A DNA stretch of 64,000 nucleotides from Dyella thiooxydans (GTDB lineage Bacteria > Pseudomonadota > Gammaproteobacteria > Xanthomonadales > Rhodanobacteraceae). The DNA is taken from assembly GCF_001641285.1 (NCBI RefSeq), contig NZ_CP014841.1:1054001-1118000 (forward strand). Reading direction: 5' to 3'. Shown piece by piece: positions 30,770 to 41,680 of the stretch; position 1 is the first letter of the stretch; each line of letters starts with the position of its first letter. Below the pieces are notes generated by a model. It saw only the letters and a program-made list of their open reading frames with translations. It ran no database searches and was not told the DNA's origin. The position numbers and the translations under genes were made by a program.

Positions 30770-31009
30770 TCAGCCCTGGTCGACGATGAAGCTCACGCGC
30801 ATGTCCACGCGCCATTCGGTGATCTTGCCGTCGGGTGTGGTGCAGACCTTGATGTCGCTGATCCAGGCACCGCGGATGTCCCCGATGGTCTTGGCCACCC
30901 GGCCCAGACCGAAGCGCACGGCTTCCTCGATGCCCTTGTCCGATGCGGCGTTGACCTCGATCACCTTGGCGAGCTGCGTCCTTGCGGACCTGGACTTCTT
31001 CGTGGCCAT
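30770..31009 (-). CDS. Dodecin (flavin-storage protein)
   Basis: A 79-residue dodecin. These small proteins assemble into hollow dodecamers that bind pairs of flavins and buffer free FMN/FAD. Diagnostic sequence: SDKGIEEAVRFGLGRVAKTI and KITEWRVDMRVSFIVD. The start MATKKS has a good GGAGGAG ribosome site. It is divergent from the CBS gene and has its own perfect FNR-type box 60 bp upstream, so it probably belongs to the low-oxygen regulon. Confidence 0.92.
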   Translation of the reverse strand: MATKKSRSARTQLAKVIEVNAASDKGIEEAVRFGLGRVAKTIGDIRGAWISDIKVCTTPDGKITEWRVDMRVSFIVDQG

Positions 31010-31068
31010 GGGTGGCTCCTCCGGCATGGGAATGTCGGGCCACCGTAGGCGATGGGCGCAGAGCGACC

Positions 31069-31082
31069 TTGATCACGATCAA
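31069..31082 (-). promoter_or_regulatory. FNR/ANR-type box (perfect) for dodecin
   Basis: TTGAT-CACG-ATCAA matches the FNR/ANR consensus exactly. Its centre is 66.5 bp upstream of the dodecin start, which would fit a class II (-41.5) activator site with a 25-nt leader. Confidence 0.8.
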
Positions 31083-31170
31083 ACATGCCGGCCGGTACGA
31101 GCCGCGCCCCCTCCGCTGCCCGCATGGCGCAGGCGCCCGGCCGCTGCCGCACGCCTCGCAGCGCCATTCC

Positions 31171-31184
31171 TTGATTGCCGTCAA
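31171..31184 (+). promoter_or_regulatory. FNR/ANR-type box (one mismatch) for the CBS gene
   Basis: TTGAT-TGCC-GTCAA differs from consensus in one base. The centre is 69.5 bp upstream of the CBS-protein start, nearly the same spacing as at the divergent dodecin gene. Confidence 0.7.
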
Positions 31185-31246
31185 GGTGACGATCGCAGCG
31201 GCGCGCAGGCTGCATCACGAGTCACTCCTGACCGTGGGGTCGTGCC

Positions 31247-31696
31247 ATGCATGCCGCTGAAATCTGCACCCGACACGTCGTCTACATCGACCGGAAGGCG
31301 TCCATCCGCGAGGCGGCGCAGAGCATGCGCGGCCATCACGTCGGCGCCCTGGTGATCACCGACCAGCCGAACGGCGAACGCGTGCCGGCCGGCATCATCA
31401 CCGACCGCGACATCGCCATCGCCGTAGTGGCGGCGGGCATCCAGCCCGAAAACCTCACGGTCGAGGACGTGATGAACCGCAACGTCGCCACCTGCACCGA
31501 GAGCGAGGACCTGTTCGACATCATCACCACCATGCTCGCGCGCAGCGTGCGACGGCTGCCGGTCGTCAACGACAAGGGCGGGCTGGTCGGCATGGTCTCG
31601 GCCGACGACCTGTACGGCGCGCTGTCGACGCATCTGCGCATGCTGAGCCAGGCGCTGGCCCGCGAGCAGGTGCGCGAGATGGAAGTCCGCGCCTGA
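31247..31696 (+). CDS. Tandem CBS-domain protein
   Basis: A 149-residue protein made only of two CBS domains (about 8-68 and 75-135; GIITDRDIAIAVVA, GMVSADDLYGALS). Stand-alone CBS pairs bind adenosine nucleotides and act as energy sensors. First gene of a probable operon with the flavodoxin-like and phosphoribosyltransferase genes (9- and 4-bp gaps), preceded by an FNR-type box. Confidence 0.92.
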   Translation: MHAAEICTRHVVYIDRKASIREAAQSMRGHHVGALVITDQPNGERVPAGIITDRDIAIAVVAAGIQPENLTVEDVMNRNVATCTESEDLFDIITTMLARSVRRLPVVNDKGGLVGMVSADDLYGALSTHLRMLSQALAREQVREMEVRA

Positions 31697-31705
31697 GCCG
31701 CCGCC

Positions 31706-32203
31706 ATGAAGCCACGTATCCTGCTCGCCTATTACTCGATGACCGGTCACACCCGCGACATCGCCGAGGAACTGCGCTCGGCGCTGCAGGCCGACGTGGA
31801 GGAAATCCGCGAACCGCATCCACGCCGCGGCCTGCGCGGTGTACTGCGCGCCCTGTTCGATGCGGTCCTGCGCCGCGAACCGCCGATCGGAACGCCGCGC
31901 CACGATCCTGCCGTCTACGATCTGCTCGCGATGGGTGGCCCGGTGTGGGCCGGTCGCATGGCCTCGCCGCTGCGCAGCTACGCCAGGCAGCTGGCCGAGC
32001 GTGCGCCAAGGGTTGCGTTCTTCTGCACCGAGGGCGGACGCGGTGCCGAGCAGGCGTTCGACGATCTCGGCAGGCTCTGCGGCAAGATCCCGGAGGCCAC
32101 CCTGGTGGTGGATGCGCAACACCTTCCTCCGGGACTGCACCGCGATACCCTGCAGAGGTTCGTCGCGAAGCTCGGGAGAGAACGGCCCGCCCCGGGCCAT
32201 TGA
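31706..32203 (+). CDS. Flavodoxin-family protein
   Basis: A 165-residue protein starting with a flavodoxin FMN phosphate loop (LAYYSMTGHTRDIAEEL) and a second flavin-loop motif (LLAMGGPVWAGRMASPL). It resembles flavodoxin/NAD(P)H-quinone-reductase-like proteins often found beside stress genes. It sits between the CBS and phosphoribosyltransferase genes in the probable FNR-controlled operon. Electron partner unknown. Confidence 0.88.
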   Translation: MKPRILLAYYSMTGHTRDIAEELRSALQADVEEIREPHPRRGLRGVLRALFDAVLRREPPIGTPRHDPAVYDLLAMGGPVWAGRMASPLRSYARQLAERAPRVAFFCTEGGRGAEQAFDDLGRLCGKIPEATLVVDAQHLPPGLHRDTLQRFVAKLGRERPAPGH

Positions 32204-32207
32204 AGCC

Positions 32208-32837
32208 ATGCGCGGCCTGCCCTTCTTCGACCGGATCGAGGCCGCCCGCCTGCTGGTCGAGCGGCTCGGTGCCTACCGCGATGCCGATGCGCTGGTGCTC
32301 GCGATCCCACGCGGCGCCGTGCCGATGGGCCGCGTCATCGCCGACGCCCTGCACGCGGATCTTGACGTGGTGCTGGTGCGCAAGCTCGGTGCGCCGGGCA
32401 ATCCGGAATTCGCCGTCGGCGCGGTCGACGAGTCAGGGACCGTGCATTTGGCCGAATACGCCGCCAGCGCCGGTGCCGACCACAGCTATCTCGGGCACGA
32501 GCGCGCGCGACAGCTGCAACGCATCAGGGAACAGCGTCGGCTGTACAGCCAGGAGCGCCCGCCCATCGATCCGGCCGGACGTGTGGTGATCGTGGTCGAC
32601 GACGGCCTGGCCACCGGTGAGACCATGGCCACCGCGCTCGCCACCGTGCGACGGCAGGCGCCGGCGTAACTGGTCTGCGCGGTGCCGGTGGCATCCGCCG
32701 ATGCGCTTGCGCGGGTGCGCACCCTCGCCGACGACGTCGTCTGCCTGCACGTTCCGCCGCACTTCGGTGGCGTGGGGGCGTTCTACCTGCGCTTCGACCA
32801 GGTCGAGGACGAGGACGTCGTGGCGGCGCTGCGTTGA
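32208..32837 (+). pseudogene. Phosphoribosyltransferase-fold protein interrupted by an in-frame TAA
   Basis: The first 153 codons encode a type I phosphoribosyltransferase domain (ALVLAIPRGAVPMGRVIADA, the PRPP-binding loop VVIVVDDGLATGETM). A TAA at 32667-32669 stops the frame after RRQAPA, yet the same frame continues with family-like sequence (LVCAVPVASADALARVRTLA, then CLHVPPHFGGVGAFY) to a TGA at 32837. The full frame of about 209 codons is the usual length, so this looks like a nonsense mutation. Readthrough, or a functional shortened protein that keeps the PRPP loop, is possible. The start overlaps the end of the flavodoxin gene region closely (4-bp gap). Confidence 0.8.
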
Positions 32838-32853
32838 GCCGCGCAGGGCGGGC

Positions 32854-33150
32854 TCAATCGCGCGCGCGGCTGCCGAGCAGACCGATCAGGAAAGCCGCGG
32901 CCGCCACGCCGCCGAGAACGACCCAGGGCTGCTCGTGCACGTAACGGTTGCCACGGTCGACGGTCCGGCGCACACGATCGCCGGCATCGCGCTCGAGTCG
33001 CGAGACCCGCTCGCGGATCCCGCGCAGTCGGGCGTGGACATCCTCGGCCTCCTCTCCGGTCGCGGCCGCCACGTCTTTCATCAGTCGATCGACGTCGCCG
33101 GCGATCGCGTTCAGGTCGCTCTTCAGGTATTGGGCATGCACATGTGCCAT
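32854..33150 (-). CDS. DUF883/ElaB-YqjD-type membrane-anchored protein
   Basis: A 98-residue protein: amphipathic helical N-terminal two-thirds (DLNAIAGDVDRLMKDVAAAT) and one C-terminal transmembrane helix (WVVLGGVAAAAFLIGLLG) ending in charged residues. This is the plan of E. coli YqjD/ElaB, tail-anchored proteins that bind ribosomes in stationary phase. Within the stress island it fits ribosome parking. No clear FNR box precedes it. Confidence 0.85.
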   Translation of the reverse strand: MAHVHAQYLKSDLNAIAGDVDRLMKDVAAATGEEAEDVHARLRGIRERVSRLERDAGDRVRRTVDRGNRYVHEQPWVVLGGVAAAAFLIGLLGSRARD

Positions 33151-33233
33151 GACGGGCCTCCGGGATGCATCAATGCGGGGTTGTGGTTCTGCAAAGGGGC
33201 GGGGCGGTGCCCGCCAAGCCGGGCAGCCGGGGC

Positions 33234-33995
33234 TCAGGCCACCGCCACCTGCGGCACGTCGGTACGGGCGGAAGGCGCCGCTCCCCTGCCCCAGACCGCC
33301 GACCGCTCGAGCTGTCGCGGATCGCGGATGCGGATGCTGCGCCCCTGCACGTCGACCGCACCGATCCGGTTGAGACGACTCAGCCCGCGGCTGACCGTCT
33401 CCAGCTTCAGCCCCAGGTAGCTGGCGATGTCCTCGCGGGTCATGCGCAGCACATACTCGCTGGACGAGCAGCCGTGCTCGGCATGGCGCCGGCCGAGCTC
33501 CAGCAGGAACGTGGCCAGACGCTCCTCCGCCTTCGCCGAGCCCAGCAGCAGCAGGGTCTGCTGTTCGTACTCCACCTCGTGGGACAGCTTGCGGATCAGC
33601 GCCACGTAGAGCCCACGGATATCGATGCCGGCCTGCTCCAGCTGCGGCAGCGGAATTTCCAGCGCCACGCTGTACTCGAGCATGCGGATCGAGGTGGGAT
33701 GGACACCGGCATCCAGCGCATCCAGCCCCAGCAGGTCTTCGGCCATGTAGAAGCGGGTGATCTGCTCGCGACCGTCGGCGCCCGGGCAGGTCGCCTTGGC
33801 CGAGCCGCTGGTGAGCAGGAACAGCGAGCGGAAGGGCGCACCCGCACAGGCGAGGTAGCCGCCCTTCTGCATCCGGTGCACGTGCAGCGTGAAGCGGGAG
33901 GCCACTTTGAGAAGCTCCCGCCCGAAGGCGCTGCGATGCAGGGTGTCGTCGGCCAGCTTGCGTGCAGTGGACAAGGAGGCGATCGTCGCGGACAT
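33234..33995 (-). CDS. CRP/FNR-family transcriptional regulator lacking the iron-sulfur cysteines
   Basis: A 253-residue regulator: cyclic-nucleotide-binding-like beta-roll (about 30-115), long dimer helix (125-150) and a C-terminal winged helix (185-225). The recognition helix LETVSRGLSRL keeps the E-x2-S-R triad (E199, S202, R203) that in FNR reads TTGAT half-sites. The N-terminus has no Cys cluster; the only cysteines are C50, C70 and C176, not spaced like FNR. It is therefore closer to Dnr/FixK-type proteins that sense NO, haem or nothing directly. It lies amid genes with TTGAT-N4-ATCAA boxes and is their likely controller, alone or with a cluster-bearing FNR elsewhere. Divergent from the OmpR-type regulator gene. 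Confidence 0.9.
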   Translation of the reverse strand: MSATIASLSTARKLADDTLHRSAFGRELLKVASRFTLHVHRMQKGGYLACAGAPFRSLFLLTSGSAKATCPGADGREQITRFYMAEDLLGLDALDAGVHPTSIRMLEYSVALEIPLPQLEQAGIDIRGLYVALIRKLSHEVEYEQQTLLLLGSAKAEERLATFLLELGRRHAEHGCSSSEYVLRMTREDIASYLGLKLETVSRGLSRLNRIGAVDVQGRSIRIRDPRQLERSAVWGRGAAPSARTDVPQVAVA

Positions 33996-34063
33996 CGGAT
34001 GGCTCCAGTCAACTCGGGAGCCTCGATCCTGCACTGCCAGGCGCGTGCGACGGCTACAAAGAG

Positions 34064-34088
34064 GTAACCTTTTGTAACGGCGTGTAAC
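34064..34088. promoter_or_regulatory. Three GTAAC direct repeats with an exact 10-bp period
   Basis: GTAAC occurs at 34064-34068, 34074-34078 and 34084-34088, one helical turn apart, between the divergent FNR-type and OmpR-type regulator genes. Tandem half-sites at 10-11 bp spacing are the usual target of OmpR/PhoB-family response regulators (for example GTAAA-N5-GTAAA for CpxR), so this is a candidate site for the adjacent regulator. Confidence 0.6.
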
Positions 34089-34224
34089 AGCCCCGGCAGG
34101 CGCTGCCACGGCGTTGCAGCACGCCGGGTGCGGGGCGAGTAATCTGCCGCTGGCCGGAAGCACCGGGCGCAAGCCTCGCCTTCCTGGCGGGGGCCTGGCC
34201 GCAAGGCGGGATACGGAGGCAAGG

Positions 34225-34974
34225 GTGACGTCGACAGAAACCGACAAGTGCGGGACGTCCGGCCAGCAGACGCACGTGTTGGTGGTCGATGACGACAGCG
34301 AGATCGCGTTGCTGCTCAAGCGCTATCTCGCCGCCCAAGGCTTCGCGGTCAGCATCGTCGGCTCCGGTCGGGAGATGCTTGCCCGACTCGCAGAGACCGC
34401 GGTCGACCTGATCCTGCTCGACCTCGGCCTGCCCGGCGAGGACGGTCTCGACCTCACCCGGCATCTGCACGAGCACTGGCACGGACCGGTGATCATCGTC
34501 ACCGGGCGCGGGGATTCGGTCGACCGCATCGTCGGGCTGGAACTCGGCGCCGACGACTACGTCACCAAGCCGTTCGAGCTGCGCGAGCTGCTGGCGCGCA
34601 TCCGCAGCGTGCTGCGCCGTGTCGGCGAGCGCCCGCGGAACAACGAAGCGCAGCCGACCACCTATCGCTTCGCGGGCTACCGCCTGGAAGCCCACAGCCG
34701 CACGCTGACGACCGATGCCGGCCAGCCGGTCGCACTCACCAACGGCGAATACGAGTTGCTGCAGGTCTTCGTCACCCATCCGAACCGGGTGCTGTCCCGG
34801 GACGAGCTGATGAATCACCTCTATGGCCGCGATTCCGGTCCCTTCGACCGCGCGGTGGATGTGCAGGTCGGCCGCCTGCGGCGCAAGATCGAGCCCGACC
34901 CGGCTGCGCCCACGCTGATCAAGTCGGTGCGCGGCGCAGGCTACATGTTCAGCGACACGGTGCAGCGGGAGTAA
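34225..34974 (+). CDS. OmpR/PhoB-family response regulator
   Basis: A 249-residue regulator: receiver (about 17-130) with acidic pair in VVDDDSE, phospho-acceptor D66 in LLDLGLP, Lys115 in VTKPFELRE; then a winged-helix effector (about 150-245, LTNGEYELLQVF, RAVDVQVGRLRRKIEPD, RGAGYMF). GTG at 34225 was chosen because GGAGG lies 6 bp upstream and it gives the standard length. The hybrid kinase follows 4 bp later. Confidence 0.92.
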   Translation: MTSTETDKCGTSGQQTHVLVVDDDSEIALLLKRYLAAQGFAVSIVGSGREMLARLAETAVDLILLDLGLPGEDGLDLTRHLHEHWHGPVIIVTGRGDSVDRIVGLELGADDYVTKPFELRELLARIRSVLRRVGERPRNNEAQPTTYRFAGYRLEAHSRTLTTDAGQPVALTNGEYELLQVFVTHPNRVLSRDELMNHLYGRDSGPFDRAVDVQVGRLRRKIEPDPAAPTLIKSVRGAGYMFSDTVQRE

Positions 34975-34978
34975 AGCC

Positions 34979-37021
34979 ATGGCCAACGCCGGCATCGCCG
35001 AAAACGAACTCATGTTGCGGACGCTTTTCGACACGGTGCCCGACGCCATGGTGGTGGTCGACCGCAGCGGCGACATCGTGCTGGCCAATCCGCAGGCCCA
35101 CCACCTGTTCGGCTATGTACCCGGCGGCCTGCCCGGCCTGGCCATCGAGGCGCTGCTGCCGGAAGCCGTGCGCGCAGCGCATGCCCGGCATCGCGAGCGC
35201 TACATGAGCCATCCCCGGGTCCGTCCAATGGGCGCGGGCTTCGAGCTGACCGGGCTGCGACGCAACGGGGATACCTTTCCGGTGGAGGTTGCGCTGAGCC
35301 CGATCGGCCAGGAACTGTTCGCCGCCTCGATCCGCGACATCTCGGAAACCCAGCGGGTGCGACAAGCCCTGCAGCACGCCCGCTACCACGGCTACCTGGC
35401 GCAGCTGGGCCGGCTGGTGCTGGAATCGAACCGGGACGAGTCGGCGCGTACCGCCGTGCCCGCGCTGATCGCCGAAGCGCTGGGCGTGGAGGCGGCGGCG
35501 GTCGCCGTCGGCCTTCCCGACGGCGAAGCCTTGCCGATCCGCGCATCCCACGGGGTGCCTGCGCGGCTGGCGGATGCTCTGCCCGAAGCCTTCGCCAGCG
35601 ACCGGTTGTCCGAACGCCTGGCCGAGTTCCGGTCGACCGGCATCTGGACGCTCTCGCGCAGTCCGGCGGACGACCTGCCGGCGTTGCGCGCGACGCTGGA
35701 TGCCCACGGCTTCGCGGACATGGCGATCGTGCCGCTGCTCGACCGGCTCAAGCCCACCGGCGCCCTGCTCGCCTTCTCCACCCAGCCGGACAACTGCGAC
35801 GACGACAAGTCGAACTTCCTGCGGCTGGCCGCCCACATCCTGGCTGCGGCGATCCAGCGCAGCCGCAGCGAGGAGCAACTCGCCCATGTCCATCGCCTCG
35901 ACGCCCTGGGCCAGCTCAGCGGGGGCATCGCGCACGACTTCAACAACATGCTCACCATCATCTCGGGGAATCTGCAGATGCTGGATGCCGAGCAGGCCGG
36001 CGGCCAGGGAGCGCATCCGTTGATCGAAAGCGCGTTGCGGGCGGTCGATCACGGCGCCGCGCTCACCCGCAAGCTGCTGGGGTTCTCACGCCAGCAGGCA
36101 CTGTCCCCGCGCGCGCTGCGCCCGCAGCGCGTGCTCGCCGAGCTGGGCGAGATGCTCGCCCACACCCTGGGCGAGCGCGTCCGGCTCAGCACGGACTGCG
36201 CCGCGGACGTACCGGCGGTGCTCGCCGACCCCAACGAACTGGAGACCGCGCTGGTGAACCTCGCGCTCAACGCCCGCGATGCCATGCCGGACGGAGGAGC
36301 GCTGCGGATCACCGCCCGCGCGCGCCCGACGCCACCCGAGGGGCCGGATGGACTGCCACCGGGCAGCTACGTCGCTTTTACCGTGGCGGATACCGGCACC
36401 GGCATGTCGCGGGATGTGCTCAAGCGTGCGATGGACCCCTTCTTCACCACCAAGACGGCCGGCAAGGGCACTGGCCTCGGCCTGAGCATGGTCTACGGCT
36501 TCGTCAGGCAATCGGGTGGCCGGGTCAGGATCGAGAGCATGCCGGGCCAGGGGACCCGGGTCGAATTGCTGCTGCCGACCTCGCCAATGCCGCCGCAGGA
36601 AGAGGAGGAGTCCGACGCCGCCCCGGACGCCGCAGTGCGCCGGGATCCCCCGCGGGTGCTGGTGGTGGAGGACGAGCCAGACGTGCGCCGGGTGGCCATG
36701 GGATTGCTCCGTGCGCTCGGCTACGAACCGGTCGAGGCCGCCAGCGCCTCGCAGGCGCTGGCACGGCTGCATGAAGACCCGACGATCCGGCTGATGTTCT
36801 CGGACGTGGCCCTGGGCAACGGACACACCGGATTCGAGCTGGTGCGCGAGGCACGCATGATGCGGCCGGGCCTGGCCGTGCTGCTGACGTCCGGATACGA
36901 GCAGGCGGCCGCGGGGGCCGCGGCGGCGCAGCGTGACGGCATCCAGCTCCTGCGCAAGCCGTACCGGCAGAGCCAGCTCGCCGAGGCCGTGACCAGGGCG
37001 CTCGAAGGCAAGGTGCGCTAG
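34979..37021 (+). CDS. PAS-GAF hybrid sensor histidine kinase with C-terminal receiver
   Basis: A 680-residue soluble kinase: PAS (about 10-125, DAMVVVDRSGDIVLANPQA), GAF-like domain (about 150-295), HisKA with H319 in GGIAHDFNN, HATPase (LNARDAMPDG, ADTGTGM, GTGLGLSMVYG) and a receiver (about 558-678; D609 in FSDVALG, K660). There is no transmembrane segment, so the signal is cytoplasmic, consistent with redox, gas or metabolite sensing through PAS/GAF. The layout resembles kinases that dephosphorylate or relay to a partner such as the upstream OmpR-type regulator. Located in the low-oxygen island. Confidence 0.92.
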   Translation: MANAGIAENELMLRTLFDTVPDAMVVVDRSGDIVLANPQAHHLFGYVPGGLPGLAIEALLPEAVRAAHARHRERYMSHPRVRPMGAGFELTGLRRNGDTFPVEVALSPIGQELFAASIRDISETQRVRQALQHARYHGYLAQLGRLVLESNRDESARTAVPALIAEALGVEAAAVAVGLPDGEALPIRASHGVPARLADALPEAFASDRLSERLAEFRSTGIWTLSRSPADDLPALRATLDAHGFADMAIVPLLDRLKPTGALLAFSTQPDNCDDDKSNFLRLAAHILAAAIQRSRSEEQLAHVHRLDALGQLSGGIAHDFNNMLTIISGNLQMLDAEQAGGQGAHPLIESALRAVDHGAALTRKLLGFSRQQALSPRALRPQRVLAELGEMLAHTLGERVRLSTDCAADVPAVLADPNELETALVNLALNARDAMPDGGALRITARARPTPPEGPDGLPPGSYVAFTVADTGTGMSRDVLKRAMDPFFTTKTAGKGTGLGLSMVYGFVRQSGGRVRIESMPGQGTRVELLLPTSPMPPQEEEESDAAPDAAVRRDPPRVLVVEDEPDVRRVAMGLLRALGYEPVEAASASQALARLHEDPTIRLMFSDVALGNGHTGFELVREARMMRPGLAVLLTSGYEQAAAGAAAAQRDGIQLLRKPYRQSQLAEAVTRALEGKVR

Positions 37022-37046
37022 CCGCCGCCGACGGCCCGGGACCGGT

Positions 37047-38027
37047 TCACGGCACCAGCACGGCGGAACCCTCGAAGCGGCCGTGGCGCAGGTCGTCCAG
37101 CGCCTCGTTCGCCTGCTCCAGTCGATAGCGCCGCGTGGTGGCGCTCACGCAGGCGCGCCTTGCATGGTCGAAGAACTCCCGCGCGTCCGACCGGGCCAGG
37201 TTGGCCACTGACACCAGTTCCCGCTCCCCCCACAGCCACCGGTAGGGCATCGACGGAATATCGGACATGTGGATGCCACCGCAGACCACGCGCCCGCCCT
37301 TGCGCACCGCACGCAGGGCCCGGGGCACGAGCTCCCCGCTGGGCGCGAAGATGATCGCCGCGTCGAGCAACTCGGGCGGCGCCACGTCGGAATCTCCGGC
37401 CCAGGCGACGCCGTGCGCGCGGGCGAAATCCTGTGCCGCATGGTCCCCCGGCCGGGTGAACGCCAGCACGCGACGCCCCTGGTGGCGCGCGATCTGGGTC
37501 ATCAGGTGCGCCGCTGCGCCAAAGCCGTAGATGCCGATCGTGGCGGCCTCGTCGGTCCGGGCCAGCGCGCGCCAGCCGATCAGCCCCGCGCACAGCAGCG
37601 GCGCACAGGCCACCGGATCGACCTCGCCCAGCGGGATGCAGAAGTCGGCGCGGGCGATCAGGTGACTGGCAAAGCCGCCGGGCCGCGTATAGCCGGTGAA
37701 CTGCGGCGCGTCGCAGAGATTCTCGCGCCCACCGCGGCAGTAGTCGCATACGCCGCAGGTCCCTCCCAGCCAGGGCACGCCCACGCGCTGGCCCGGAACC
37801 AGCCCGCCGGCATCCGGCCCCACGCACTCGACCCACCCGACCACCTCGTGCCCGGGAACGACCGGCAGGGCCGGCTCCGGCAGCTCGCCGTCGACCAGAT
37901 GCAGGTCGGTGCGGCATACGCCGCAGGCCTCGACGCGAATCCGTGCCTCGCCAGGTCCCGGCACGGGATCCTCGTGATGGCGCAGCACCAGCGGCTGTCC
38001 CGCCGCTTCAAGCGTCATGGCACGCAT
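37047..38027 (-). CDS. Zinc-dependent alcohol dehydrogenase
   Basis: A 326-residue medium-chain dehydrogenase. Catalytic zinc ligands appear in ACGVCRTDLHL and GHEVVGWVE; the structural zinc site is CGVCDYCRGGRENLC. The Rossmann loop reads IYGFGAAAHL, with Ala in place of the last Gly of GxGxxG. It resembles AdhA/AdhP-like enzymes induced by oxygen limitation in other bacteria. The start lies 9 bp after the Usp stop with GAGGA upstream, so the two are co-transcribed. Confidence 0.92.
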   Translation of the reverse strand: MRAMTLEAAGQPLVLRHHEDPVPGPGEARIRVEACGVCRTDLHLVDGELPEPALPVVPGHEVVGWVECVGPDAGGLVPGQRVGVPWLGGTCGVCDYCRGGRENLCDAPQFTGYTRPGGFASHLIARADFCIPLGEVDPVACAPLLCAGLIGWRALARTDEAATIGIYGFGAAAHLMTQIARHQGRRVLAFTRPGDHAAQDFARAHGVAWAGDSDVAPPELLDAAIIFAPSGELVPRALRAVRKGGRVVCGGIHMSDIPSMPYRWLWGERELVSVANLARSDAREFFDHARRACVSATTRRYRLEQANEALDDLRHGRFEGSAVLVP

Positions 38028-38036
38028 GGCGAGTCC

Positions 38037-38864
38037 TCAGTGATGGAACAGCACGGGCAGCGACGCCTTCCACAACACGTGCCGGGTGGCGCCGCCGAGC
38101 ACCCGCTCGCTGAAACGGCTCCGCCCGAACGCCCCCATCACCAGCAGATCCGCATCGAACCGGCCCGCATGCTCCAGCAGCACCTCGCCGATCCCGCGGC
38201 CAGCGGCATTCAGATCCAGTGAGCGCGGCTGGATTCCGTGCCGGTTGAGATAGGCATCGATGTCGAAGGGCGGCTTCCAGGCGATATCGCGAAGGGTCTC
38301 CCTGGGTGCACCTCGCAACAGCAGCACGTCGTCTGCCCGTCTCAGCAGCGGCAACGCCGAGTGCACCGCGCGGATCGCCTCGGGCGCGCCGTTCCACGCA
38401 ATCGCGATGCGGGCCAGCGAGACCTCGCCGACCGGTCGCGGCGGCACTACGATGCACGGCAACCCGACCGAGAGGATCAGCCCGGCCAGGTCCTCGGGAG
38501 TGGACCAGGTCCGGTCCTCATCCCGCTCCACGACGAGCAGGTCATGCCAGCAGGCGATCCGCGAGAGCACGTCGCGCAGATCGCCCTGCACCACCACCCA
38601 GGCGGCCTGCTCCACCCCGAGGCTTTTCGCCCACGCGACGAATGCCGCTTCGGCACCGAGCGCGCTCGCTTCGAGTATCCGCGACATCCCGACCACCGTC
38701 TCGATCACTTCGGGCGTGCCGAATTCGGGCGCGGCGTAAAGCGGTGGCGGATAGGCGTACAGCCCGGTGACCGAGCCGTGCACGAGGGCGGCCAGCCGGA
38801 TGCCGTACTGGGCATCGCGGGACCAGGTCTCGAAGTTGATGGTGTTGACGAGGATGTCGTACAT
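38037..38864 (-). CDS. Tandem universal stress protein (UspA family)
   Basis: A 275-residue protein of two Usp domains (about 1-140 and 145-275). The second has the ATP-binding signature G-x2-G-x9-G in VMGAFGRSRFSERVLGG; the first lacks it. Tandem Usps of this type occur in anaerobic-survival regulons (ANR in Pseudomonas, DosR in Mycobacterium). GGAGGG precedes the ATG. A weak palindrome TGAC-CCAG-GTCA at 38943-38954 is a degenerate FNR-like site at the expected distance. Confidence 0.92.
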   Translation of the reverse strand: MYDILVNTINFETWSRDAQYGIRLAALVHGSVTGLYAYPPPLYAAPEFGTPEVIETVVGMSRILEASALGAEAAFVAWAKSLGVEQAAWVVVQGDLRDVLSRIACWHDLLVVERDEDRTWSTPEDLAGLILSVGLPCIVVPPRPVGEVSLARIAIAWNGAPEAIRAVHSALPLLRRADDVLLLRGAPRETLRDIAWKPPFDIDAYLNRHGIQPRSLDLNAAGRGIGEVLLEHAGRFDADLLVMGAFGRSRFSERVLGGATRHVLWKASLPVLFHH

Positions 38865-38987
38865 CGCGAGCCCTCCATTTGCCCATGCCGTTCGCCGGCG
38901 ACACCAGGGGAGCACGCTGGACCAAGTCGGCCATGGTCTTGGTGACCCAGGTCAAGGTTGCGACGGGTTCCCGCCCCATCCCGGGGC

Positions 38988-39001
38988 ATGATCTGGATCA
39001 A
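38988..39001 (+). promoter_or_regulatory. FNR/ANR-type box (one mismatch) for the second Usp gene
   Basis: ATGAT-CTGG-ATCAA differs from the consensus only in the first base. The centre is 81.5 bp upstream of the Usp start at 39076. Confidence 0.7.
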
Positions 39002-39075
39002 GCTCACCTGCGGCGGCCCATGCATGCTGGCGCTCAACCGGCTCTCCGTGCAGCCGGCTTTGCGAGGGGCATCAC

Positions 39076-39882
39076 GTGCGCGACATCGTCGTCCACAGCC
39101 CGGATTTCCGGCATTGGCCAGCCACCGTGCGTTACGCCGCACAGCTCGCCGCGGACACCCGCGCCGGACTGACCGGCCTGTACATCGCCGCGCCGACCGT
39201 GGCCCTGCCGGGCCCGCCACAACTGGCGCAGGAGGCGCTTGCCTACGCACAGGACGAACTCCAGCAGGCGGTGCTCGCCGGACCGGCCTTTGCCGCCTGG
39301 GCAACCACGCTCGGCGTGCGCGAAGCGCGCTGGCAGGTCGCACAGGGGCCGGCGGCGGACGCGCTGGTGTTGGCCGGCCAATGGAACGACGTGGTGATCC
39401 TGCAGGGCAACGTGCCGCCCTGCTCCGTCGACGAACGCCTGGTGCTGGAGACCCTGCTGTCCGGCGTGGGATGCATCCTGGTGCCCTCTGCCGGCTTTTC
39501 GCCCGGTCGCGTGGCGCGTGCCGTGGTGGCCTGGGACAGCAGCCTTGCGTCGCACCGCGCCCTGCATGGCGCCCTGCCGCTGCTGGTCGACGCGACGGCG
39601 GTCGCCCTGCTGCAGCCGCCGCCGGAGCGGCGACCAGGCCGCCCGTTGTTCGATCCGGCCTCGCACCTGCGATCGCGCGGCGTGAACGTGACCCGCATCG
39701 AGACCGTGGGCGAGGCCGACGAAGACGCGGGCGAACATCTGCTGGCCATCGCCGCCGAGGAGCGGGCCGACCTGTTGGTGCTCGGCGCCAGCGGATGCCG
39801 GCGTCCGGGTGGCTGCAGCTTCGGCGCCACCACGCGGGTGGTGCTGTCGCGCAGCCATCTGCCGCTCTATCTCCGGCACTAG
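39076..39882 (+). CDS. Tandem universal stress protein (UspA family)
   Basis: A 268-residue two-domain Usp, divergent from the first and distantly similar to it (DIVVHSPDFRHWPATVRYAA). The second domain keeps the nucleotide signature LGASGCRRPGGCSFGATT. The Val-start region and length match the neighbour. An FNR-type box lies upstream. A 276-bp non-coding stretch follows, holding the next FNR-type box but no gene. Confidence 0.9.
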   Translation: MRDIVVHSPDFRHWPATVRYAAQLAADTRAGLTGLYIAAPTVALPGPPQLAQEALAYAQDELQQAVLAGPAFAAWATTLGVREARWQVAQGPAADALVLAGQWNDVVILQGNVPPCSVDERLVLETLLSGVGCILVPSAGFSPGRVARAVVAWDSSLASHRALHGALPLLVDATAVALLQPPPERRPGRPLFDPASHLRSRGVNVTRIETVGEADEDAGEHLLAIAAEERADLLVLGASGCRRPGGCSFGATTRVVLSRSHLPLYLRH

Positions 39883-40084
39883 CGGGCCGTCACCGAGGTG
39901 ACCCGGCTGGCCCGGCCTTGACCAGCATCGGAAAGATGCGCCCGGCACGAGCAGGTCGAACCGGACGACCTCCCCGGCAAGATCGAACGCGTGGTGGCCG
40001 GCCCGGAAAAGCAGACCCGCATGCCCAACGAGCGGGAACCCCGGACCGTGGCCGCGACAGCCGTCGGCCACTCGTGGCAAGAGG

Positions 40085-40098
40085 CTGATCTGGATCAA
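40085..40098 (+). promoter_or_regulatory. FNR/ANR-type box (one mismatch) for the hibernation factor gene
   Basis: CTGAT-CTGG-ATCAA; the spacer CTGG is the same as in the box at 38988. Its centre is 67.5 bp upstream of the start at 40159. Confidence 0.7.
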
Positions 40099-40158
40099 AC
40101 CGTGCGACGCACAGGGCGCCAGCATGGCGGAGTACCCCAACGACGTGGAGTCCCCGTC

Positions 40159-40515
40159 ATGAGTTTCCTGATCGAAGTGAGCTTCCTCGACATGCGGCCG
40201 TCCAAGGCGTTGTACGAAGACATCTCGCGCCACGCGCTGCAGCTGGAACACTTCGCTCCCACACTGACCGACTGCCGGATCACGGTGCGCCATACCGAGG
40301 CGCGCCACCGCACCGGGAACCACTATCGCGTGCTCGCCCGGGTGAGCCTGCCCGGCGCCCAGTTCGAGGCGAGACGAGAGACCGGCAACGACACCCATGC
40401 CGACGTCCACGTGGCGGTGCGCGACACCTTTGCCGCGCTGCGGCGCCAACTGCAGGACTTCCTCCAGGTGCGCCGTGGCGAGGTGAAGCACCACGAGCGA
40501 CCCGATGCACGATGA
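40159..40515 (+). CDS. HPF/RaiA-type ribosome hibernation factor
   Basis: A 118-residue short-form ribosome-associated inhibitor-like protein (SFLDMRPSKALYEDISRHAL, then FEARRETGNDTHADVHVAVRDTFAALRRQL), with the beta-alpha-beta-beta-beta-alpha plan of HPF/YfiA. These bind the 30S decoding region and inactivate ribosomes in dormancy. The start MSFLIEV has GGAG 8 bp upstream. Divergent from canonical HPF, so function is inferred from fold and from neighbouring stress genes. Confidence 0.78.
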   Translation: MSFLIEVSFLDMRPSKALYEDISRHALQLEHFAPTLTDCRITVRHTEARHRTGNHYRVLARVSLPGAQFEARRETGNDTHADVHVAVRDTFAALRRQLQDFLQVRRGEVKHHERPDAR

Positions 40516-40541
40516 CGAAAGCCGGGGGACGCGTGTGGCCA

Positions 40542-40555
40542 TTGATGCAGGTCAA
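40542..40555 (+). promoter_or_regulatory. FNR/ANR-type box (one mismatch) for the host-attachment-family gene
   Basis: TTGAT-GCAG-GTCAA, one mismatch in the right half as in the CBS box. The centre is 76.5 bp upstream of the start at 40625. Confidence 0.65.
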
Positions 40556-40624
40556 GTGGCGCCGCCGCCCCCGCTCCTAGCATCGGAACACCCCATCTCA
40601 TCGGCCCGAAGGGCGGGAGGCAAC

Positions 40625-41068
40625 ATGACATCGACCTGGATCCTGGTGGCGGATGCGGCCCGCGCGAGGGTGTTCGAATCGGAGCGGCGCGGCGGTCCGT
40701 GGACGGTGGTGTCGTGCCTTGCCAATCCGGACGGGAGGGCCCCGGGCCGCGACGCCACCACCGAGCGTGCGCCACGCACCATGGAGAGCGTGGGCTCGGC
40801 GCGCCACGCGATCGAACCGCATACGACCCTGCGCGACAAGAGCAGCGAGCGCTTCGCGCGCATGCTGCGTGACGAGCTTGATCGCGGTTGCACCGAGCGT
40901 CGCTGCGAGCAACTGGTGCTGGTGGCCCCGCCACGCTTCCTCGGCACGCTGCACGGCGTGCTGGACAAGGCGCTGCGCGAACGGATCAGCGGCGAGCTGC
41001 AGAACGACTTCACCGCGCTGGAGGAACTGGACGTCCGCGAGCGCGTGATGCGCGAACTGCCGGTCTGA
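40625..41068 (+). CDS. Host attachment family protein
   Basis: A 147-residue protein of the host-attachment (Host_attach) family related to archaeal-type release factor folds: TWILVADAARARVFES at the start and LVLVAPPRFLGTLHGVL in the middle. Named from an Agrobacterium plant-attachment gene, but the family's real role is unclear; the fold suggests RNA or ribosome binding. Here it sits beside a hibernation factor with its own FNR-type box. Confidence 0.85.
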   Translation: MTSTWILVADAARARVFESERRGGPWTVVSCLANPDGRAPGRDATTERAPRTMESVGSARHAIEPHTTLRDKSSERFARMLRDELDRGCTERRCEQLVLVAPPRFLGTLHGVLDKALRERISGELQNDFTALEELDVRERVMRELPV

Positions 41069-41077
41069 ACGCGCCGG

Positions 41078-41108
41078 GTGGACGCACCGCATGCGGCGGT
41101 GCGTCCAC
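41078..41108. terminator. 13-bp perfect hairpin between convergent genes
   Basis: GTGGACGCACCGC (41078-41090) pairs perfectly with GCGGTGCGTCCAC (41096-41108) around ATGCG. It lies in the 54-bp gap between the convergent host-attachment and Hsp20 genes and probably ends both transcripts. Confidence 0.75.
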
Positions 41109-41122
41109 GGCGCATGGCGCAT

Positions 41123-41584
41123 TCATTTCACCGCGATGCGCTGACTGCTTCCATTCGGCTTCTTCGGCAGGGTCAGCGTGAGCACGCCACCCTCGTAGCG
41201 CGCCTCGGCCTTGCTGCTGTCGACTTCGGCCGGCAGGCTGAAGGCGCGGAAGACGCGTCCGACGTAGCGTTCGTTCACCAGCGCATGCTCGTTCTCCTTC
41301 TTTTCGCTGCTGTGCCTGGCTTCCGCACTGATCGCCACCTGGCCGCCGTCCACCGAGATCTCGATGTCGTTCTTGTCGACGCCGGGGATATCGGCCTTGA
41401 CCACGTAGGCTTCGTCTTTTTCGGACACGTCCAGGCGCATCTCCGGGATCATGTCCACGTCGCGCCAGAACGCCCGGTTGGCCATCGGACGGAACACGTC
41501 GTCGAAGGCGCCGAGCGGAAAACCGGCGAGCGGATCGATGCGGGCGGGACTCTTGAAGGGGTTCCAGTGTGTGAGGGTGCTCAT
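41123..41584 (-). CDS. Small heat shock protein, Hsp20 family
   Basis: A 153-residue alpha-crystallin-type chaperone: N-terminal arm (1-45), alpha-crystallin domain (about 46-138; VVKADIPGVDKNDIEISVDG, YVGRVFRAFSLP) and a short C-tail with the IxI-like IAVK. The conserved GVLTLTLPKK is present. Start MSTLTHW chosen at the family-typical N-terminus with GGAGGAACC upstream. An FNR-type box lies upstream, as for DosR-type hspX genes in other dormancy regulons. Confidence 0.95.
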   Translation of the reverse strand: MSTLTHWNPFKSPARIDPLAGFPLGAFDDVFRPMANRAFWRDVDMIPEMRLDVSEKDEAYVVKADIPGVDKNDIEISVDGGQVAISAEARHSSEKKENEHALVNERYVGRVFRAFSLPAEVDSSKAEARYEGGVLTLTLPKKPNGSSQRIAVK

Positions 41585-41666
41585 GGTGGTTCCTCCTGGT
41601 TGGGCGATGGCGCAACGGCTCGGGTCACGCCACCAGACAATCTGCGTCCGCCGCGACGGTGTGGTG

Positions 41667-41680
41667 TTGATTCCGGTCAA
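41667..41680 (-). promoter_or_regulatory. FNR/ANR-type box (one mismatch) upstream of Hsp20
   Basis: On the minus strand TTGAC-CGGA-ATCAA. The centre is 89.5 bp upstream of the Hsp20 start; it is also about 150 bp upstream of paoA on the other strand, so it could serve either. Confidence 0.6.

Follow-up and report, generated by a model that had tools for sequence, protein, structure and literature searches.

Three GTAAC half-sites, spaced at one helical turn, lie between two divergent regulator genes in the 64,000-nucleotide stretch of the Dyella thiooxydans genome analysed here (hereafter the window). Their position raises the question of which protein reads them and whether they serve one of the two genes or both.

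The GTAAC triple and the genes that flank it

The three exact GTAAC copies occupy 34064-34068, 34074-34078 and 34084-34088 on the plus strand (GTAAC-N5-GTAAC-N5-GTAAC, a 10-bp period), confirming to the exact coordinate the arrangement given in the original prediction, and this is the single exact triple in the 4.23-Mb genome. It is separated by 68 bp from the start of an FNR-type gene (33995, minus strand) and by 136 bp from the GTG of an OmpR-type regulator gene (34225, plus strand). The features of the locus are as follows:

33234..33995, minus strand: gene of an FNR/FixK-type regulator of 253 aa, the proposed target (HTH_Crp_2 and cNMP_binding domains; helix ETVSR)
34026..34031, minus strand: CAGGAT, -10-like hexamer of the FNR-type gene, 32 bp past the proximal half-site (predicted start near 34019)
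34064..34088, minus strand: the triple read on the strand of the FNR-type gene, GTTAC-N5-GTTAC-N5-GTTAC, the proposed three-half-site operator of the response regulator (genome-unique exact copy; conservation before FNR-type genes)
34225..34974, plus strand: gene of an OmpR-family response regulator of 249 aa, FxkR-like, the proposed binder (Response_reg and Trans_reg_C domains; 47% identity to FxkR9)
34979..37021, plus strand: gene of a hybrid histidine kinase of 680 aa, hFixL-like (PAS, GAF-like stretch, HisKA, HATPase and C-terminal receiver; 43.5% identity to hFixL9)

At up to two mismatches, the window contained one match to the triple, the exact one, and 100 dinucleotide shuffles contained none. 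At the same tolerance, two places were found in the whole genome (4,227,172 bases), namely 34064-34088 and one place with two mismatches, and one in the backward-read control. The pair GTAAC-N5-GTAAC gave two overlapping genomic matches, both inside the triple (control, 1). A GTAAC-repeat regulon with many members was rejected for this genome, as the exact pair is absent outside the triple; this search covered exact pairs, and weaker sites may exist. At 0.762 Mb, the two-mismatch triple has a second regulator about 5 kb away (0.756 Mb); this regulator resembles OmpR, and a search of the stretch around the triple with the window FNR-type protein gave no match. No copies on plasmids were found by DNA similarity.

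The FNR-type protein of the window has the same ETVSR helix as FixK9a and FixK9b and is only 32% identical to FixK9b. Its cysteines are found at positions 50, 70 and 176 only, residues 1-49 being cysteine-free, a statement that concerns the window protein alone, as the automatically chosen start codon is out of frame for several of its relatives. Because it is without an N-terminal cysteine cluster, this protein is probably not an oxygen sensor itself. The GAF-like stretch of the kinase scored 24.1 bits, under the Pfam cut-off of 28.6. By regulator identity, the closest named relatives are Dyella ginsengisoli (95%) and D. lutea (93%). Elsewhere in the window, a phosphoribosyltransferase-like frame (31839-32669, Pfam match) stops at a TAA at 32667-32669; the codons past 32669 in the same frame resemble, by eye, the rest of a phosphoribosyltransferase, and this looks like a broken gene or a sequencing error.

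Resemblance to the rhizobial hFixL-FxkR-FixK cascade

In the hFixL-FxkR-FixK cascade of rhizobia, a hybrid kinase and a regulator induce fixK via the K-box GTTACA-N4-GTTACA, as set out in passages of PMC4999443 and PMC7888657, and FxkR is assigned to the OmpR family in a passage of PMC7769827. The FxkR motif is described in the relevant part of PMC4999443 as a 17-bp palindrome and not as a direct repeat. Part of the window triple matches the K-box exactly:

34073..34088, minus strand: GTTACACGCCGTTACA, exact match to the K-box GTTACA-N4-GTTACA (consensus from passages of PMC4999443 and PMC7888657)

The promoter of the FNR-type gene starting at 33995, a fixK-type gene, thus contains a K-box. 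The window regulator is 47% identical over 239 residues to FxkR9 of pRL9, and the window kinase is 43.5% identical over 393 residues to hFixL9. In a search of the genome with FxkR9, the window regulator came first (212 bits) and the OmpR-like paralogue second (197 bits). In a regulator tree, FxkR and the window group split from the four tested paralogues of this genome and from the Magnetospirillum regulator with moderate support (0.859).

With the cascades of Rhizobium etli, R. leguminosarum 3841 / R. johnstonii (pRL9) and Sinorhizobium meliloti, the window locus shares an OmpR-family regulator, a hybrid PAS kinase with a C-terminal receiver, a FixK-type target lacking a cysteine cluster and the operator GTTACA-N4-GTTACA. 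Like pRL9, where the K-box separates the divergent genes fixK9b and fxkR9, it also has a divergent fixK/fxkR pair. Different from these systems, its host belongs to another order, the Lysobacterales (often called Xanthomonadales), it keeps a third half-site at the same period whereas the third is degenerate on pRL9 (TTCAC, GGCAC), and no role in nitrogen fixation is implied. A perfect GTTAC pair was also found on plasmids in an S. meliloti relative, between the regulator and a divergent Crp/Fnr gene, and in an Ensifer relative, between the regulator and a divergent gene annotated as a helix-turn-helix protein. A Variovorax relative has the regulator, kinase and Crp/Fnr genes in the order seen in most family relatives of the window locus, with no clear triple (best, four mismatches), and no annotated Crp/Fnr gene was found within 6 kb on either side in a Magnetospirillum relative. 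Among the literature titles on FixK in Rhodanobacter/Xanthomonadaceae and on FxkR and hFixL, mostly from non-subscription journals, none points to such a cascade outside the rhizobia. More distant relatives of the regulator (33-37% identical) occur in metagenome-assembled genomes of Deferribacteres, Calditrichia, Ignavibacteria and Kapaibacterium, and the loci of distant regulator relatives L054-L058 gave no match to the window FNR-type protein at E 1e-5.

Other known systems are alike in part. In the FixLJ-FixK cascade, a sensor kinase and a regulator also switch on a FixK-type gene, but FxkR is not a FixJ homologue according to a passage of PMC7888657, and the FixJ site is a different, imperfect palindrome of 16-18 bp in the part of PMC4999443 that describes it. 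The GlnR box (GTnAC-n6-GTnAC) and the RstA box (tandem TACA), as outlined in parts of their literature, likewise consist of tandem half-sites about one helical turn apart that are read by OmpR-family proteins, but they belong to other regulators with other targets, and the GlnR period is 11 bp. The original prediction that GTAAC repeats at 10 bp fit a tandem operator of the OmpR family is thus supported in kind by the K-box match and by the conservation described below. Taken together, it is very probable that the triple is an operator of the neighbouring OmpR-family regulator, located in the promoter of the FNR/FixK-type gene and part of a cascade resembling hFixL-FxkR-FixK.

Conservation of the triple with the FNR-type gene

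The exact triple stands at the same place between the same flanking genes in all four genomes of the window's genus. In the most distant member, whose regulator is 82% identical, the spacers and the surrounding DNA have diverged and the three GTAAC are unchanged. In the family (233 genomes), the triple at up to one mismatch was found at 88 places in 76 genomes, and at 37 places in the backward-read control (hand count). All 88 places were read: 69 lie before an FNR-type gene (67 genomes; FNR-linked, that is, within 300 bp of an FNR-type protein match), 5 before the regulator, all in genus g14, and 14 elsewhere. The 14 unlinked places are no more than expected by chance, because the control gives 37. 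At 58 of the 69 FNR-linked sites the kinase gene lies behind the FNR-type gene and points towards it, with the triple on the far side; the FNR-type gene is divergent from the regulator at 4 sites (the window's genus), and 7 sites are without a kinase in the stretch read. The convergent order of the FNR-type and kinase genes in most of these relatives is a further difference from the rhizobial systems. As the triple stays with the FNR-type gene even where this gene stands behind the kinase, it appears to be part of the FNR-gene promoter rather than of the regulator-kinase operon.

Two FNR-type subfamilies are found behind the same triple (loci L159, L160 and L162 versus the window gene at 33234-33995). 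The window type, 60-100% identical, occurs in 7 of the 233 family genomes; the second is about 33-46% identical to it, and its N-terminal part was matched in 66 of the 233. In addition, two genomes of genus g2 share an unlinked near-triple before what is apparently the same unrelated gene (L158 in G004, L161 in G029), the -10 spacing being absent there.

A regulator-positive set was chosen without reference to the motif, comprising the 64 of 233 family genomes, from 14 genera, with a regulator match of E 1e-85 or better. FNR-linked triples at up to one mismatch were present in 54 of these 64 genomes, a count that, like the other conservation counts, overstates the number of events because genomes of the same genus are not independent. 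Seven of the remaining 10 have a triple with two or three mismatches at the expected place, and the other 3 are without readable FNR upstream DNA, owing to a contig end (G063, G237) or to an FNR-type gene not found on a short contig (G255). Conservation of the repeats in orthologous intergenic regions, proposed as a check in the original prediction, is therefore strong. The 61 readable genomes provided 60 distinct upstream regions, in which the best 10-bp triple had 0, 1, 2 and 3 mismatches in 10, 43, 6 and 1 regions, respectively. In these 60 regions, periods of 6 to 15 bp other than 10 bp never reached two mismatches or fewer on either strand, nor did 10-bp triples of CAATG, GTTAC, GATAC, GTCAC or ACTAG on the same strand, while the near-identical half-site GCAAC at 10 bp did, as expected.

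These data bear on the proposal, also made in the original prediction, that the regulator controls both genes through the site, in which case it would activate the FNR-type gene and either activate or repress the regulator-kinase operon. In the window's genus the triple does sit between the two genes, 136 bp from the regulator start in the window, and a passage of PMC7888657 suggests that the K-box shared by fixK9b and fxkR9 represses fxkR9 because of its position at +6. Conservation argues against dual control: at 58 of the 69 FNR-linked sites the FNR-type gene stands between the kinase and the triple. Moreover, of the 64 regulator-positive genomes, no more than 9 (the 4 from the window's genus plus 5 from g14) have a triple at up to one mismatch within 400 bp before the regulator, versus 54 with one before the FNR-type gene. 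The triple also has no fixed position relative to the regulator, the distance being 161 or 171 bp in the window's genus and 119-348 bp in g14. Joint control of both genes is thus rather unlikely. As a conserved role, the idea that the site chiefly controls the operon of the regulator itself was rejected, since the triple goes with the FNR-type gene.

Another possibility is that the triple is bound by a different OmpR-family regulator, such as the OmpR-like paralogue at 0.756 Mb, which is itself 47% identical to FxkR9; GlnR, as described in part of its literature, is an example of an OmpR-family protein that reads GTnAC-n6-GTnAC repeats. Against this, the FNR-linked triple tracks the adjacent regulator-kinase pair, being found in 54 of the 64 regulator-positive genomes (plus the 7 at two or three mismatches) but in only 13 of the 169 genomes under the regulator threshold. 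Of these 13, 11 carry a related regulator or kinase within the DNA that was read, where G087 and G158 showed neither. We consider binding by another regulator improbable, and the neighbouring regulator remains the favoured binder.

Spacing between the triple and a -10-like hexamer

The hexamer located 32 bp past the triple was compared across 65 distinct FNR-type promoters of the family: A at the second position and T at the sixth are each present in 91%, and the first position is T in 75% and C, the window base, in 23%. The window hexamer, CAGGAT, departs from the form TANNNT, and a scan of the intergenic region with the sigma-70 consensus returned no promoter. Among the seven family sites with a two- or three-mismatch triple, TANNNT was present at this spacing in five and absent at L218 and L220. 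If transcription starts 7 bases after the -10-like hexamer, the edge of the window K-box would lie at about -54, nearer to the inferred start than the downstream edge of the published rhizobial K-box, which is at -62 from the start site as derived from coordinates.

For the g14 triples that precede the regulator, the spacing points at the divergent gene (exact in three of five, shifted by one base in two). This divergent gene encodes a universal stress protein in G254, and a universal stress protein is also encoded behind one further unlinked triple. Based on this geometry and on these genes, the regulator may have further targets in g14, namely universal stress genes. Two other unlinked triples, L185 (G253) and L171 (G223), keep TANNNT at the promoter spacing and are possible further targets of the regulator.

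The same relation was found in other families of the order. Across 398 genomes of the order, 45 have the exact triple in its GYAAC form. Outside the window's family, 13 places were found and 12 were read (G479 was left out). Ten of the 12 lie before an FNR-type gene, nine of those with an adjacent kinase, and TANNNT is present at the same spacing at all 10 FNR-linked sites and at neither of the 2 unlinked ones.

FNR boxes around the locus

Searching the window for TTGAY-N4-RTCAA with up to one mismatch gave 11 matches (shuffles: mean 1.64, largest 7), 8 of which cluster at 30.9-41.7 kb (30951-41680), a stretch with dodecin, CBS-domain, dehydrogenase and universal-stress genes. Four FNR-box-like sequences are listed here, all unstranded:

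31069..31082: TTGATCACGATCAA, between the dodecin and CBS-domain genes, a possible member of the regulon of the FNR-type protein
31171..31184: TTGATTGCCGTCAA, in the same dodecin/CBS-domain intergenic region
40542..40555: TTGATGCAGGTCAA, from the motif search
41667..41680: TTGATTCCGGTCAA, from the motif search

In the family, 37 of 66 distinct FNR-type promoters carry TTGA-N6-TCAA in the 120 bp that precede the triple (shuffles: mean 0.03, largest 1). Of 63 distinct 300-bp regions upstream of the regulator match, 24 contain it (shuffles: mean 0.07, largest 1). An FNR box upstream of the regulator is a possible return link from the FNR-type protein; in the window itself, no FNR box was found between the FNR-type gene and the regulator.

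That the FNR-type protein itself uses the repeats, or that no protein does and they are a chance or structural feature, is barely credible: autoregulation is known for FNR/FixK proteins (in a passage of PMC4999443), but FixK proteins bind TTGAT-N4-ATCAA (in a passage of PMC7888657), those 37 of 66 promoters have TTGA-N6-TCAA as an element of its own ahead of the triple, and the conservation and the period test do not fit chance.

The sensor domain of the kinase

The PAS domain of the window kinase matches haem-PAS structures of FixL with E values down to 4e-17; a different structure, with the title multi-sensor signal transduction histidine kinase, gives the best match (1.4e-20). His68 of the kinase aligns with the His of the FixL structures, which we take to be the haem ligand, and every one of the 28 kinase rows spanning this position has His there (one row being a second copy of the window locus). 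The distal-pocket Arg of FixL, Arg220 in B. japonicum, is absent: the window kinase has Phe88 there, and its relatives have Tyr, Phe, Gln, His, Met or Gly, mostly Tyr or Gln. This Arg is present in two rhizobial kinases of the same alignment, so that Phe, Tyr or Gln in the PAS pocket here stands against Arg there. The kinase is therefore possibly a haem sensor with an altered ligand preference, and if these kinases are haem sensors, the replacement of the distal Arg by Tyr, Phe or Gln could tune their response to another ligand or another range of oxygen.

Discussion

Judged from sequence, the most likely reading is that the site is a K-box with three half-sites and that an FxkR-like regulator acts through it to activate a FixK/FNR-type gene. 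The operator reading is built on the repeats themselves, their conservation with the FNR-type gene, the near-fixed 32-bp distance to the -10-like hexamer, the K-box match and the resemblance of all three proteins to their rhizobial counterparts. In the proposed mechanism, the hybrid kinase would sense a signal, perhaps oxygen or another haem ligand, via its FixL-type PAS domain and phosphorylate the regulator, which would bind the half-sites in a head-to-tail arrangement immediately upstream of the -35 region and recruit RNA polymerase; the FNR-type protein would then act on FNR boxes. The link between the kinase signal and the FNR regulon that the original prediction had drawn thus holds up, in that the FNR-type gene appears to receive input from the regulator-kinase pair, but the label feed-forward does not suit it, and the arrangement is better described as a cascade running from kinase to regulator, FNR-type gene and FNR regulon.

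More tentatively, and with rather less than even confidence, a cascade of this kind may extend across the Lysobacterales/Xanthomonadales. It would have three half-sites in its K-box, a rigid promoter and FixL-type haem-sensor kinases whose distal Arg is replaced by Tyr, Phe or Gln, and in one genus it would also act directly on universal stress genes. If this is true, the cascade would be an old proteobacterial stress and low-oxygen switch and not a rhizobial invention. That this operator recurs in the Lysobacterales/Xanthomonadales with a FixK-type target and with a regulator and kinase of the rhizobial kind, and that Sinorhizobium, Ensifer and Variovorax have related layouts, suggests that the role of the cascade is broader and perhaps more ancient, and that it probably lies in the physiology of low oxygen or stress. 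For the window locus, a concrete predicted binding site and a promoter model are obtained, and a kinase-regulator pair that annotation alone would read as 'OmpR family' gains a likely target.
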